A stretch of 64,000 bases of DNA from contig NZ_KB889719.1 of the NCBI RefSeq assembly GCF_000372745.1, positions 1-64,000 on the forward strand. The letters are read 5' to 3'. How positions within the stretch are numbered: the stretch's first letter is position 1; the number at the start of each line of letters is the position of its first letter. Under the pieces are notes generated by a model. It made no database searches and was not told the DNA's origin. It was given only the letters and a program-made list of their open reading frames with translations. Shown here piece after piece: positions 40,249 through 44,742 of this stretch. Source of the DNA: Embleya scabrispora DSM 41855. GTDB taxonomy: Bacteria > Actinomycetota > Actinomycetes > Streptomycetales > Streptomycetaceae. Made by a program: the position numbers and the translations under genes.

Positions 40249-41308
40249 CGCGTTGCGGATCGCGATCACCGCGCAGGACGCCGAGGAGTGGTTCGGCGAG
40301 GTGGTCCGGTACGACCTTCCCGGGATCGGGCACGAGCCCACCCGCCGCTTCCTGGCCGAGGTGGGCCTGCCGCGCGAGGCCGCGCTGATCCGGTTCCATC
40401 CGGGCGGCGAGCGGGACGGGGTGATCGTGCTCGGCACGTACGGCTCGCTGCGCACCTCGGCCCGGGAGGTGCTGCTCGACGGCGCGACCGGTCGGGTCTT
40501 CGGCGAGGAGCGGTTCGGCGACCCCGCGCCGCTCTCGATGGACGTGTCCACCCTGGTGCGCAACGCCGGCCTGGTGGAGGCGATCCGTACCGGCCGCGGC
40601 CCGGTGCGCACCGGCGAGGACCTGCTCGATCTGCTCGGCGAGACCGAACCCGAACTGGATCCGGGGCACTCGTTCTGGCACACCTCCTTCGCGCTGTGGC
40701 AACTGCGGCGGGCGGCGGTGCCGGGGGAGGGCCTGGCGGTGCGGATCACCTCGGCGATGCTCGACCTGGTGTACGAGAACGAGTTCTCCGGCTACGAGCA
40801 ACGGCAGTTGCCCGCCGCGATCACGCACGAGCCGACCCGGCGCTTTCTGCTCGACATCGGGCTGATCGACGCGTGGGCGTACCTGGACATGCGCAGCGAC
40901 GGCAAGCCACTGCCGACCCTGGCCGAGTTGATCGCCGAGCGCCGGGCGGACTGGGACGACGAGCCGGAGCCGCCGGCGGACGCGGAGCACCTGGTCGTGC
41001 TCGGCTATGTCAGCGAGGACGGCGACCTGCTCGTGGACGGCCGCACCGGTGTGGTCCGGCGCTGGTACACCGGTGACGACGAGCCGCGGATGGACACGCT
41101 CAACACCGACCTGTCCACGCTCGCCTTCACCATGTGGGTGATCGGGCGGATGCACCGACAGGGCGAGCGGTTCGGAATCGGCATCCACGACGTGTGGGAG
41201 TCGATCGTGGTCGAGCTGCTGTCCTCGGTCGATCCGCTCGCGTGGGCCGAGCCGAGCAGCTACTGGGAGAACATGATCCTGGACGGGATAAACGGGCTCG
41301 GCCCGTGA
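40241..41308 (+). CDS. SUKH-4 family protein, double domain (copy 2)
   Basis: A 355-residue protein with two tandem SUKH-4-like units. The diagnostic HEPTRRFLAEVGLP (first unit, near residue 26) and THEPTRRFLLDIGLIDAW (second unit, near 200) are nearly the same, as are DVSTLVRNAGL and NTDLSTLAFTMWV. VLLDGATGRVF and LLVDGRTGVVR close the strand pairs. It is a paralogue of the gene before it, with which it overlaps by 8 bp, so the pair is co-translated. Use as an immunity protein is suggested only by family. Confidence 0.84.
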   Translation: MADALRIAITAQDAEEWFGEVVRYDLPGIGHEPTRRFLAEVGLPREAALIRFHPGGERDGVIVLGTYGSLRTSAREVLLDGATGRVFGEERFGDPAPLSMDVSTLVRNAGLVEAIRTGRGPVRTGEDLLDLLGETEPELDPGHSFWHTSFALWQLRRAAVPGEGLAVRITSAMLDLVYENEFSGYEQRQLPAAITHEPTRRFLLDIGLIDAWAYLDMRSDGKPLPTLAELIAERRADWDDEPEPPADAEHLVVLGYVSEDGDLLVDGRTGVVRRWYTGDDEPRMDTLNTDLSTLAFTMWVIGRMHRQGERFGIGIHDVWESIVVELLSSVDPLAWAEPSSYWENMILDGINGLGP

Positions 41309-41450
41309 CCGGGCCGGTGACCGGGCCGACCGGGCGTCGAGGCGGGACCCGGCTCCGCGATCCGAATGCGGGATGCTTGACTGGAGGGGACGGCTCGACT
41401 CGCGTCCGCCGCCACTCGTACCGCTCTGGCTAGGGGAACCGAAGGTGACC

Positions 41451-41753
41451 ATGTCGAATCCCACGCTGCGTTACTCGCTCTATCGGCTCGGCATCTTCGC
41501 CGCGCTGTTCGCCGTGGTCATGGCCGTGTTCTGGCTCTTCGACCTGAACGGCCGCGGGTACGCGTTCATCGCGACCGCCATCGCGGCGGCGGGGTCGGCG
41601 TTGATCAGCTACCGGTTCCTGAACGCGGAGCGGGACGCGATGTCCGAGGCGCTGTACGAGCGGGTGCAGCGGGCGAAGCAGCGGATCGCCGAGGACAACC
41701 ACGCCGAGGACGAGACGGTGGCCCCGGTCCGGATCGCCAAGGAAGCCTCCTGA
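41451..41753 (+). CDS. DUF4229 membrane protein
   Basis: A 100-residue protein with two membrane helices (LGIFAALFAVVMAVFWLFDL and AFIATAIAAAGSALISYRFL) and a charged cytoplasmic tail of about 35 residues. It matches DUF4229, a small actinobacterial family of unknown function that in Streptomyces is found near menaquinone genes. The ATG at 41451 follows GAAGG; a GTG 6 bp earlier is possible. After its stop, 41754-41939 holds GC-rich repeats (two copies of CTTCGCGGGTC, 18 bp apart) and no gene I accept. Confidence 0.85.
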   Translation: MSNPTLRYSLYRLGIFAALFAVVMAVFWLFDLNGRGYAFIATAIAAAGSALISYRFLNAERDAMSEALYERVQRAKQRIAEDNHAEDETVAPVRIAKEAS

Positions 41754-41939
41754 GTCACTCGGGCTTCGGGGGACTCGCCGGCTTCGGGAATCCCAGGCGC
41801 GTCACGGGTCCCATGTGCTTCGCGGGTCTCACGGTCTTCGCGGGTCCGGCGGGTTTCCGCGGCCGCGTGGGCTTCGGGGAAGAAGCGTCTTAAGCGAGAT
41901 GTGGCCGGCGGTGTCCGCCGGTGTCCGTTCCGTAATTCT

Positions 41940-41969
41940 TTGCGTTTATCGGTTTAGTGTGGCTATCCT
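41940..41969 (+). promoter_or_regulatory. Promoter of the leader peptide and symporter
   Basis: TTGCGT (41940-41945) and TATCCT (41964-41969) are spaced by 18 bp in a locally AT-rich stretch. The expected start of transcription is at or near 41976, the A of an ATG, which would make the leader peptide mRNA leaderless. Confidence 0.6.
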
Positions 41970-41975
41970 CGCTCC

Positions 41976-42086
41976 ATGATTGGTGCAGGCGACACGCAGA
42001 TGACGAACACGGCGGTGGGTTTCCCGCTCGTGTCCCGTCGTCATGTCGACCTGGGCCGTTGCGCCACCGCGCTGTGTTGCGGCTGA
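41976..42086 (+). CDS. Cys-containing leader peptide upstream of symporter
   Basis: A 36-codon reading frame (ATG 41976, or ATG 42000 for 28 residues) ending in LVSRRHVDLGRC, then ALCCG and TGA. The L-x-SRRH-x-DL-x-R pattern is the hallmark of the actinobacterial putative leader peptide group found upstream of sulfur and transport genes. Three Cys codons, two of them adjacent just before the stop, suggest that ribosome stalling on scarce charged tRNA-Cys senses cysteine. A run of about 200 nt with possible alternative structures separates it from the symporter start. I could not identify a clean attenuator hairpin. Confidence 0.72.
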   Translation: MIGAGDTQMTNTAVGFPLVSRRHVDLGRCATALCCG

Positions 42087-42290
42087 CCGCCGCCGTGCCC
42101 CTGCCGGGCTGACGCCTTCACGCTCGTCGCCCCGACCGCCCGCACGTCGGCCATCTGCGGCCGTTCTGCGCGAAGTATCGCTTCTTCGTAGTTCCTCCTG
42201 CGGGCACTCGTGTGCCTATTGATGCGCAGGTCGGCGGCCGCTCCGTACCGCCACCCCCGTCCCCCACGGTGCCCGTTCAGGAGCCCTGCC

Positions 42291-43622
42291 TTGTCTGCTG
42301 TGGATTCACTCAAGTCCCTGAAGAGAACTCCCTTCTGGGCCCAGATAGCCGCCGGCCTCGTGCTCGGTGTGGTCTTCGGCTTCATCGCCAAGGAGTACAG
42401 CGTCTCGTGGCTGACCGAGACGCTCGACCAGATCGGCACGATCTTCGTCCAGCTGCTCAAGCTGGCCGTGCCGCCGCTGGTGTTCACCGCGATCCTGGTC
42501 AGCGTCGTCAACCTGCGCAACGTCAACAACGCGGCGCGGCTGGCCGCGCGTACGCTGCTGTGGTTCCTGATCACGTCGCTGATCGCGGTCGCGATCGGCC
42601 TCACCATCGGCCTGGTCACCAACCCGGGCGACGGCTTCAAGCTGCCGGCCGACCCGGGCAAGGCGCCCAAGACCAACGGTGACTGGCTCGACTTCCTCAC
42701 CGGCATCATCCCGACGAACATCGTCACCGCGTTCTCCGAGGTCAAGGTCCTGCAGATCGTCTTCCTGGCGGTCGTGCTCGGCTCCGCGATCCTGTCGGTC
42801 GGCGCCAAGGCCGAACCGCTGGTCAAGGGCGCCGAACTGGTCCTGGAGATCATCCAGAAGGCGCTGTGGTGGGTGATCAAGCTGTCCCCGCTGGGCACGC
42901 TGGGTCTGATCGGCACCTCGGTCGCCACCTACGGCTGGGACCTGATCAAGCCGCTGGGCACGTTCACCGCCGACATCTACATCGGTTGCGCACTGGTGAT
43001 GTTCGTGGTCTACCCGCTGCTCCTCGCGCTGGTCGGCAAGGTCAACCCGCTGAACTACTTCAAGGGCGCGTGGCCGGCCATCCAGCTCGCGTTCGTCTCG
43101 CGCTCCTCGGTCGGCACCATGCCGGTCACCCAGAAGGTCACCGAGCGCCTCGGCGTCCCCAAGGACTACGCCTCGTTCGCGGTGCCGTTCGGCGCCACCA
43201 CGAAGATGGACGGTTGCGCCGCGATCTACCCGGCGATCGCCGCGATCTTCGTGGCCGAGGTCTACGGCGTGAACCTGGGCATCAAGGAATACCTGTTGAT
43301 CGCGTTCGTCTCGGTGATCGGCTCGGCGGCCACCGCCGGTCTCACCGGCGCGATCATCATGCTGACCCTCACGCTCAGCACGGTGAACCTGCCGCTCGCC
43401 GGCGTCGCGCTGCTCCTGGCGATCGACCCGATCCTGGACATGATGAGGACCGCCACGAACGTGGCCGGGCAGGTCGTGGTGCCGATCCTGGTTTCCGCTC
43501 GGGAGAAGACGCTGGACCTGGAGAAGTACAACAACCCGCGTGACCTGGAAGCGCCCGACGAGCCGGCCACGCCGCACGTTCCGCTCCAGAAGACGGCGGA
43601 GCGCGAACCGGTCTCGGTCTGA
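42291..43622 (+). CDS. Dicarboxylate/amino acid:cation symporter (DAACS/SDF family)
   Basis: A 443-residue secondary transporter of the glutamate/dicarboxylate/cystine family, with about eight helices and two re-entrant loops. The serine-rich loop SRSSVGTMPV and the cation-binding TKMDGCAAIYP segment (variant of NMDGTA) are visible. Substrate may be dicarboxylate, glutamate or cystine; the Cys leader peptide upstream favours a sulfur amino acid. I chose TTG 42291 as start because AGGAG lies 7 bp upstream. A GTG at 42300 would be too far from it, and earlier frames are not conserved in style. Confidence 0.9.
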   Translation: MSAVDSLKSLKRTPFWAQIAAGLVLGVVFGFIAKEYSVSWLTETLDQIGTIFVQLLKLAVPPLVFTAILVSVVNLRNVNNAARLAARTLLWFLITSLIAVAIGLTIGLVTNPGDGFKLPADPGKAPKTNGDWLDFLTGIIPTNIVTAFSEVKVLQIVFLAVVLGSAILSVGAKAEPLVKGAELVLEIIQKALWWVIKLSPLGTLGLIGTSVATYGWDLIKPLGTFTADIYIGCALVMFVVYPLLLALVGKVNPLNYFKGAWPAIQLAFVSRSSVGTMPVTQKVTERLGVPKDYASFAVPFGATTKMDGCAAIYPAIAAIFVAEVYGVNLGIKEYLLIAFVSVIGSAATAGLTGAIIMLTLTLSTVNLPLAGVALLLAIDPILDMMRTATNVAGQVVVPILVSAREKTLDLEKYNNPRDLEAPDEPATPHVPLQKTAEREPVSV

Positions 43623-43637
43623 CGTTCCCACTCGACC

Positions 43638-43678
43638 GGCGCCCCCGATCCCCTCGTGCCGAAGGGGTCGGGGGCGCC
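43638..43678. terminator. Terminator between symporter and WYL regulator
   Basis: A 16-bp stem with a single bulged A, GGCGCCCCCGATCCCCT (43638-43654) and AGGGGTCGGGGGCGCC (43663-43678), with an 8-nt loop. It lies between the convergent symporter and WYL-regulator genes. Confidence 0.9.
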
Positions 43679-43686
43679 GTCGTGTC

Positions 43687-44742
43687 TCAGCGCGCGGGGC
43701 GGACGGTCGCGGCGTCGTCGCCCGTGCGCTCGGCGGCTCCGCCGGCCCCGGCAGCCTCGGGACGGTCCGCGTCGGCCGCGTCGGCGCTCGGTGTCGCGCC
43801 CGTGTACCGGCGGGCCAACCGGCGGATGTGGTCGACCAGTTCGGGCGGGTCCTCGACCTCGAAGTCGGCGTCCAGCAGGCTGATGTAGACGGCCAGGTTC
43901 TCGATGCTGGACGCACCGGTCTCGAACACGCAGGTGTCGTCGTCGACCACCGCGAACGAGCCGAAGGCCGGTGGTACCCGATCCGCCACCGAGGCGATCG
44001 GCGCGCGCACCAGCACCCGGGCCCGGACCTGTCCGCGCACGCTCTCCACGCCCTGGTTCACGAACGCCGCCACGTCGCCGTCGGCGGGCAGTTCGCGCGG
44101 CGTGAAGCGGGGGCCGTGCGGCGGGCGCGGGGTGATCCGGTCCATTCGGAAGGTGCGCCAGTCCTCGCGCTTGACGTCCCACGCGACCAGGTACCAGCGG
44201 CCCATCCGGTGCACGAGCCGATAGGGCTCGACCACCCGCGAGGTCTCCTTGCCATCGTGCGAGCTGTACCCGAAGCGCAGTTGCTCGTGGTCGCGGCAGG
44301 CACCGGCCAGTACGGTCATCACGTCCATGTCCACGGCCGGACCGGTCTGGCGGACCGGGACGGTGTACTTCTGTAGCGCCTTGACCCGGCGGTGCAGCCG
44401 GGACGGCAGCACCTGGTCGAGCTTGGTGAGCGCGCGCAGCATCGCCTCGTCCATGCCGTCCACGACGCTGCCGGCGGCGATCCGCAGGCCGACCACGACG
44501 CTGACCGCCTCCTCGTCGTCCAGCAGCAGCGGCGGAAGCGCCTTGCCGGCGCCGAGCCGATAGCCGCCGACCACGCCGCGTCGCGCGTGCACCGGGTAGC
44601 CCAGGCTGCGCAGCCGCTCGATGTCGTAGCGGATCGTGCGCCCGCTCACGCCGAGTCGGTCGGCGAGTTCGGGGCCGGTCCAGTCGGGCCGCGTCTGCAT
44701 GAGGGAGAGCATGCGCAAAAGTCGCGCGGAGGTTTCCAACAT
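43687..44742 (-). CDS. WYL domain transcriptional regulator (YafY/DeoR-type HTH)
   Basis: A 351-residue regulator. The N-terminal winged helix-turn-helix (HTH_11) is at about residues 5-60 (DWTGPELADRLGVSGRTIRYD). The WYL domain is near 140-215 (VEPYRLVHRMGRWYLVAWD, where WYL reads RWYLVAW). A C-terminal WCX-like domain and a disordered Ala/Asp-rich tail follow. WYL proteins sense nucleic acid or small ligands. It is divergent from the MFS exporter, with 74 bp between them, and is probably its repressor. No strong Shine-Dalgarno sequence precedes the ATG at 44742, so a leaderless mRNA is possible. Confidence 0.9.
   Translation of the reverse strand: MLETSARLLRMLSLMQTRPDWTGPELADRLGVSGRTIRYDIERLRSLGYPVHARRGVVGGYRLGAGKALPPLLLDDEEAVSVVVGLRIAAGSVVDGMDEAMLRALTKLDQVLPSRLHRRVKALQKYTVPVRQTGPAVDMDVMTVLAGACRDHEQLRFGYSSHDGKETSRVVEPYRLVHRMGRWYLVAWDVKREDWRTFRMDRITPRPPHGPRFTPRELPADGDVAAFVNQGVESVRGQVRARVLVRAPIASVADRVPPAFGSFAVVDDDTCVFETGASSIENLAVYISLLDADFEVEDPPELVDHIRRLARRYTGATPSADAADADRPEAAGAGGAAERTGDDAATVRPAR

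Follow-up and report, generated by a model that had tools for sequence, protein, structure and literature searches.

Within the 64,000-nucleotide stretch of Embleya scabrispora DSM 41855 DNA that we analyzed (the window), a short open reading frame with three Cys codons lies upstream of a gene for a DAACS symporter. Does this frame govern the symporter, and what would it sense? Comparison with related loci makes it probable that a cysteine-responsive, leaderless upstream open reading frame (uORF) controls translation of this TcyP-like symporter in cis.

The leader frame, its promoter-like boxes, and the symporter start

The frame encodes MIGAGDTQMTNTAVGFPLVSRRHVDLGRCATALCCG and stops at TGA (42084-42086). 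As the first-pass annotation of this DNA had described, three Cys codons (TGC, TGT, and TGC) are present, two of them adjacent near the end (codons 34 and 35), with a single Gly codon between this pair and the stop. Assignment of the frame to the SRRHxDL leader group held in part: the motif is the same, and the peptide matches model NF042934 with an E value of 2.1e-5, but its score of 24 bits (23.3 bits in a genome search) does not reach the cut-off of 27. The E value, the occurrence of the leader in all four congeners searched, and its presence in 77 of 101 orthologous loci set it above chance, and RxxVDLxR, with a Cys 13 residues on from its first Arg, occurs in the window's leader and in 39 family members. 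To judge from these comparisons, the E. scabrispora frame is a real Cys leader.

The boxes upstream had been taken to yield a leaderless leader mRNA. This is plausible from the sequence because the -10-like TATCCT ends 6 nt before the leader ATG, and the placement recurs: in 72 of 77 orthologous leaders, a TANNNT hexamer begins 11 to 14 bases ahead of an in-frame ATG or GTG (the exceptions are L028, L030, L031, L080, and L097), versus 0 of 131 other in-frame ATG/GTG starts of the same leaders. A generic sigma-70 scan of 41800-42400, however, found no promoter there.

The symporter starts, close to the 205 bp given earlier, with a TTG 204 nt past the leader stop, preceded by AGGAG (42279-42283) at a spacing of 7 nt, and its product matches PF00375 with 355.2 bits (Pfam gathering score, 27.9). 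Relatives back this start: those in the window's group have CAGGAG and then TTG, and many Streptomyces have GGAG-TGTGTCC-GTG. The features of the region are collected in Table 1.

Table 1. Features of the leader-symporter region, in window positions
Feature	Position	Strand	Basis or remark
Promoter-like boxes, -35-like TTGCGT (41940-41945) / -10-like TATCCT (41964-41969)	41940..41969	+	sequence; 18-nt spacer
Leader ORF, 36 codons, ATG start	41976..42086	+	RRHVDL-type Cys leader; NF042934, 24 bits
LVSRRHVDL codons	42027..42053	+	peptide-level conservation, parsimony over 77 leaders
Cys codon 29 (TGC)	42060..42062	+	motif+8 is Cys in 57/77 leaders
Cys codon 34 (TGT)	42075..42077	+	invariant UGU at motif+13; proposed control codon
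Cys codon 35 (TGC)	42078..42080	+	motif+14 is Cys in 48/77 leaders
GTGCCCC just past leader	42095..42101	+	could pair with 42201-42207, competing with sequestering helix; by eye, weak
Anti-Shine-Dalgarno stretch GTTCCTCCTGCGGGCAC	42191..42207	+	predicted fold
GTGCCCG-TT-CAGGAGC, symporter Shine-Dalgarno region	42269..42284	+	predicted partner of 42191-42207
DAACS (SDF) symporter, TTG start, KMDGCAAIYPA / DPILDMMRTATNVAG signature	42291..43622	+	PF00375

Conservation of the leader and its UGU codon

We gathered 105 orthologous loci (25 from 61 window-related genomes, plus the top 80 of 585 named, confirmed contigs), 101 of them distinct, in a sample biased toward Streptomyces and its kin, and searched upstream of each symporter with the pattern R[RLQKH]H[VIL][DH][LFM], which requires R and H and limits D to D or H. 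The R[RL]HVDL type of leader was recovered at 77 of the 101 distinct loci. Seventeen of the 24 others carry a diverged leaderless-type uORF with at least two Cys codons, giving 94 of 101 by either pattern in this set of related-genome and best 80 of 585 named loci; by both patterns, seven loci lack a leader (L017, L025, L027, L029, L032, L033, and L098). The first-pass annotation had named loss of the leader or its Cys codons in relatives as counting against it; instead, the leader is kept at those 77 loci, and all 77 have Cys 13 codons past the motif Arg (motif+13).

Nine of the 17 diverged leaders come from records named Kitasatospora (L019 via its twin L085). The motif is lost or broken in 15 of the 17, while L024 and L077 keep an RLxVD variant. 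The diverged leaders of L019, L040, L041, and L054 start about 255 to 285 nt upstream of the symporter. L022 and L026 have leaderless-type uORFs of another sequence about 360 nt upstream, ending in ...AFACGCMRASRPSRPLLAG, with UGU as the last Cys codon.

A further sample of 60 genomes of the class yielded 27 parsed DAACS places of 31 (the other four were two fragments, a place lacking a locus, and the window's own gene). Here leaders precede five of eight DAACS genes with KMDGCAA[IV]YPA (one, L184, is the same gene as L023) and none of the 19 without the KMDGCAA signature; the three KMDGCAA genes lacking a leader are L189, L199, and L204. Four of the five leader-bearing genes (L183, L186, L187, and L191) lie outside the window's family. 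Across the sequences compared, the leader, its UGU codon, the promoter placement, and the link to one DAACS clade are conserved.

Which parts of the peptide are kept was followed by counting synonymous and nonsynonymous changes by parsimony on a tree built from the symporters at the 77 loci. At the motif Arg (position 0), His (+2), and Asp (+4), the counts are 10/0, 19/0, and 14/0, zeros that are partly forced because the pattern required R and H and limited D to D or H. Sites free of this constraint gave 4/0 (L at -3), 3/1 (V at -2), and 7/1 (R at +7), and position -10 gave 4/44; the three residues are kept in 77, 76, and 74 of the 77 leaders, respectively.

The motif+13 Cys is invariant although it lies outside the search pattern, and its codon is TGT in 77 of 77 DAACS leaders, with no change on the tree, not even a synonymous one. 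The conserved Cys codon is likewise TGT in 39 of 39 leaders of the NF042934 group from this genome and the class (window included; near-identical sisters such as L158-L160 were kept, and 2 of 41, L165 and L166, were dropped because a frame other than the leader had been translated) and, family-wide, in another 38 of 38 distinct leaders (taken in list order with own-genome rows skipped, two exact duplicates being dropped from 40). The last Cys codon of the diverged leaders is TGT in 17 of 17, including the two that keep a motif variant. All these counts come from related leaders and are hence not independent events.

Other Cys codons behave differently. In the 77 DAACS leaders, TGC and TGT number 66 and 4 at motif+6, 28 and 29 at motif+8, and 44 and 4 at motif+14; the remaining Cys codons of the 38 further leaders are 32 TGC and 2 TGT. 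The background is 844 UGC and 94 UGU in 314 gene-like ORFs (from the best 80 of 585 named loci), and the symporters themselves have 150 UGC versus 1 UGU. A protein HMM or a peptide pattern cannot select codons. The bases flanking UGU vary, which favors a constraint on the codon itself over one on base pairing. All leaders read thus have UGU at one particular Cys, although neighboring genes favor UGC, a sharp rule for the group as a whole that can be put to the test.

The group extends well beyond this locus. With E values up to 1e-4 allowed, NF042934 finds members in 79 of 118 genomes of the class; among 14 control genomes, none has one. In the E. scabrispora genome, it exceeds its cut-off at ten other places (on contigs C116, C114, C180, C174, C110, C103 [two], C108, C136, and C106 of G000), versus 0 of 14 control genomes. 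All ten leaders have UGU at the conserved Cys, and sulfur-type families are matched by 7 of the 10 downstream genes. Matches above the curated cut-offs are cysteine synthase (preceded, by eye, by a CysO-like ORF), O-acetylhomoserine sulfhydrylase, and SsuE; those below are SsuD-like, SsuA-like, NirA/sulfite-reductase-like, and sulfurtransferase-like proteins. Behind another leader stands a nickel/peptide ABC binding protein, likewise below cut-off. As downstream gene we took the ORF whose GC content by codon position looked most gene-like, which is not always the first ORF. The family scan covered 8 of 12 picked genes; outside it lie the genes behind the weaker leaders L124 and L127 and two of the ten, classed by eye as GNAT-like (L118) and LLM-like (L121). 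On contig C103, two leaders are divergent (68795-68845 on the minus strand and 69354-69407 on the plus strand), standing before genes that by eye are GNAT-like and LLM-oxidoreductase-like.

RNA folding between leader and symporter

In the window, the predicted fold pairs 42191-42196 with 42279-42284 and 42200-42207 with 42269-42276, which would sequester the symporter Shine-Dalgarno sequence; by eye, CTCCTG (42195-42200) can alternatively pair with CAGGAG (42278-42283). The Shine-Dalgarno sequence is paired in the minimum free energy fold of 4 of 4 congeners (z scores of -1.0 to -1.8), three of the four being close relatives.

A more elaborate arrangement is predicted in the main Streptomyces group (group A, with CRCxSAxC leaders), where the codons TGC CGC TGT ATG (element 1) can pair with CATGCAGCGGC after the stop (element 2). 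A contiguous 1:2 helix of 9 to 13 bp occurs in 36 of 46 group A loci; for 32 of the 46, no more than 2 of 40 shuffles match it. RNAalifold, run on 33 group A sequences, predicts the 1:2 helix together with a 3:4 helix that holds the symporter Shine-Dalgarno sequence. Element 2 can alternatively form 2:3 hairpins, whose stems differ between species (in the survey of these, about nine hairpins were clipped by the search pattern). Covariation support is thin because the core 1:2, 2:3, and 3:4 pairs hardly vary.

Elsewhere the leader is less clearly involved. Conserved pairing structure, which had been proposed as a check on the original reading, is seen as a predicted switch in group A, but within the first 70 nt no leader:downstream helix exceeds shuffles in the window's group (0 of 6) or in group E (0 of 3), and in the window's genus only Shine-Dalgarno sequestration is predicted. 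In group B, 11 of 16 loci have a 10-base helix involving codons 12 to 15, and the contiguous-helix test goes beyond shuffles in just 2 of 16. That test was used in place of duplex energies between the leader and the downstream RNA, which were uninformative (mean z score, -0.16). Folding of the 5' region does not surpass that of shuffled sequences (z scores of -0.88 and -0.45). Rfam searches gave two hits in 41000-43800, both far below the gathering score, and no match at the gathering score in four relatives.

We also simulated ribosome stalling on 76 of the 77 leaders (L015 was skipped), with three shuffles each. Relative to free RNA, the gain in Shine-Dalgarno access was a small 0.40 kcal/mol versus -0.11 for shuffled sequences, with 48 of 76 leaders above their own shuffles; relative to a ribosome at the stop, the values were 0.20 and -0.19, with 51 of 76 above shuffles. 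The associated p of 6e-4 is not a true probability, the sequences being related. The window itself gained 0.3 kcal/mol over free RNA and 2.8 over the ribosome at the stop, and three congeners gave -0.2 to -0.6 and -0.2 to -1.1, respectively. In this model, stalling would favor Shine-Dalgarno unmasking only slightly overall and not clearly in the window or its congeners. Coupling by reinitiation was set aside because the leader stop and the first aligned symporter codon lie anywhere between 61 and 407 nt apart.

Mechanism, substrate, and relation to known systems

The original proposal of cysteine-sensing translational attenuation gains support from the leaders at 77 of 101 loci, the leaderless -10 placement in 72 of 77, and the sulfur-type genes behind 7 of 10 other leaders. 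Under such control, ribosomes would start at the 5' AUG of the leader. With Cys-tRNA plentiful, they would run to the leader stop, and the downstream RNA would hide the symporter Shine-Dalgarno sequence. With Cys-tRNA scarce, they would pause at the Cys codons, UGU above all; the paused ribosome would cover leader RNA that otherwise pairs downstream, freeing the Shine-Dalgarno sequence and raising importer synthesis. Bacterial tRNA-Cys has the anticodon GCA; UGU is presumably used because this tRNA reads it by wobble, which presumably makes it the Cys codon most sensitive to charging. In the main Streptomyces group, element 1 would pair with 2, or 2 with 3 (e.g., GGCGCCGC); otherwise 3 would hold 4 (GGAGTGTG). 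Just the equivalent of 3:4 is visible in the window's genus.

Two other accounts concern how the leader acts. The nascent LxxRxHVDLxR might itself hold the ribosome at UGU from within the exit tunnel, with codon hunger insufficient and with cysteine, Cys-tRNA, or another sulfur metabolite as the signal. We consider it unlikely that the leader works mainly as an arrest peptide of this kind, but the evidence gives the idea some weight: L-16, R-13, D-9, L-8, and R-6 (numbered from the Cys) are near-invariant while using several synonymous codons; R-13 is found in 38 of 38 leaders through five codons, and likewise in the set of 39; changes at the unforced L -3, V -2, and R +7 of the 77 DAACS leaders are mostly synonymous; the Cys stands 13 codons past the motif Arg in all 77; and a single Cys, few for a classical hungry-codon run, is all that 10 of 20 leaders have (a count restricted to 20 leaders, by a pattern that missed many). 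Part of this invariance, however, reflects selection by the search, because the protein HMM used to choose the family leaders scores those residues favorably, and the pattern behind the 77 required R and H and restricted D. Moreover, 15 of 17 diverged leaders keep Cys and UGU without the motif, so the peptide is not indispensable there. Less likely still is a transcriptional output, in which stalling would change how polymerase pauses, or how Rho gains access, in the stretch from leader to symporter; variable leader-gene gaps and the weak or absent simulated Shine-Dalgarno gain in the window's genus fit it, but the predicted structures hold the Shine-Dalgarno sequence both in group A and in the window's genus, and no terminator-like site was found in a scan of 41800-42400, a scan uninformative on Rho.

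What the symporter carries is a separate matter. Its identity to Escherichia coli TcyP is 33%, versus 29% to GltP and DctA. In TM7, KMDGCAAIYPA aligns with QNGCAGLYPA of TcyP, including an extra residue absent from GltP and DctA, and TM8 DPILDMMRTATNVAG resembles EPLIDMGRTALNVSG of TcyP, with DP/EP as in that protein; the protein thus carries a signature of our own choosing, drawn from one TcyP reference (the GCAxxYPA insertion in TM7 plus [DE]P[IL][IL]DM in TM8). On the tree, a KMDGCAA clade of 21 sequences, 18 with a leader, is monophyletic (support, 100), the GltP/DctA-like group stands apart (94), and the split placing TcyP beside the KMDGCAA clade has a support of 60. By the signature, TcyP is the nearest characterized relative, and cystine or some other sulfur amino acid is the most likely substrate. 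The leader could nevertheless sense cysteine while the symporter carries, instead of cystine, an acidic or C4 substrate (aspartate, glutamate, or a sulfur analogue such as cysteate or cysteine sulfinate), a combination that we regard as rather unlikely. TM8 keeps D..RT..N, the best PDB matches are named aspartate transporters, BLAST bit scores are alike for TcyP (166), GltP (167), and DctA (160), and no NCBIfam equivalog is reached, the best matches being DctA (215.1 of 513 and 188 of 570 bits in two models) and GltP (171.2 of 638), both far below cut-off, with SstT at 111.1 of 308. Yet TcyP likewise keeps D..RT..N, the extra TM7 residue and the TM8 DP/EP are those of TcyP, and no leader precedes any of the 19 other DAACS genes in the class sample. 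That the frame is a chance ORF, or ordinary conserved upstream sequence with no regulatory role, is scarcely credible: it is short and falls below the NF042934 cut-off, but the invariant UGU, the way the promoter is placed, and leaders recovered with two patterns at 94 of 101 loci all speak against this.

Translational control by a cysteine-responsive leader, the reading we prefer, would mean that Streptomyces-type bacteria regulate a TcyP-like importer and sulfur assimilation by the same kind of cysteine control, based on uORFs. More speculatively, and with greater doubt than confidence, the RxxVDLxR...C leaders may form a class-wide element, a nascent-chain-assisted stall at a wobble-read UGU 13 residues after the Arg, that coordinates cysteine synthesis, sulfur assimilation, and cystine-type import without a regulatory protein. 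The kind of control is known; as far as our searches show, its DAACS symporter target is unreported, and the feature added here is a fixed UGU codon within a peptide-conserved motif. Among titles and abstract openings (Canestrari et al. 2020 excepted), we found no report of UGU invariance or of a DAACS Cys leader, and the only match listed there for RRHVDL is an unrelated virus antibody paper.

Several known systems invite comparison. Polycysteine leaderless sORFs of mycobacteria were reportedly described by Canestrari et al. in 2020, who are said to have proposed Shine-Dalgarno unmasking by stalled ribosomes. The Cys-rich leader models NF042933 (Ms5788A) and NF042936 (Ms4527A) of NCBIfam, which we take to stem from that work, score 19.7 and 15.7 bits on the window's leader, far below their 45-bit cut-offs. 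NF042934, a cis_reg_atten model named "putative leader peptide," has the same motif as the window's leader, which is under its 27-bit cut-off. As summarized in PMC9094748, PMC13236596, and PMC9031893, the mycobacterial sORFs precede cysteine and sulfur genes, and stalled ribosomes are proposed to unmask the Shine-Dalgarno sequence. The window resembles them in having a leaderless-type Cys uORF upstream; unlike them, its leader has three Cys codons and no long run, and its target is a DAACS symporter. In Streptomyces lividans, the metL leader before metNIQ is reported as methionine-dependent (table 4 of PMC8079986). That leader contains CMCRRMC, with three Cys, and cysteine instead of methionine may be what it senses.

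The uORFC-8-2 element before Rhodobacterales cysS is described as acting by ribosome-mediated attenuation through adjacent Cys codons (PMC8632094). There the output is an intrinsic terminator and the attenuator mostly uses UGC (PMC8632094), whereas the motif+13 Cys here is UGU in all leaders read. The symporter shares with E. coli TcyP (YdjN), a cystine/sulfocysteine symporter, the DAACS family and the GCAxxYPA insertion in TM7; unlike TcyP, it has KMDG in place of GQNG, the branches are long, and its substrate is assigned by resemblance. The group A switch would follow the classical four-part attenuator logic, but with ribosome access as the output.
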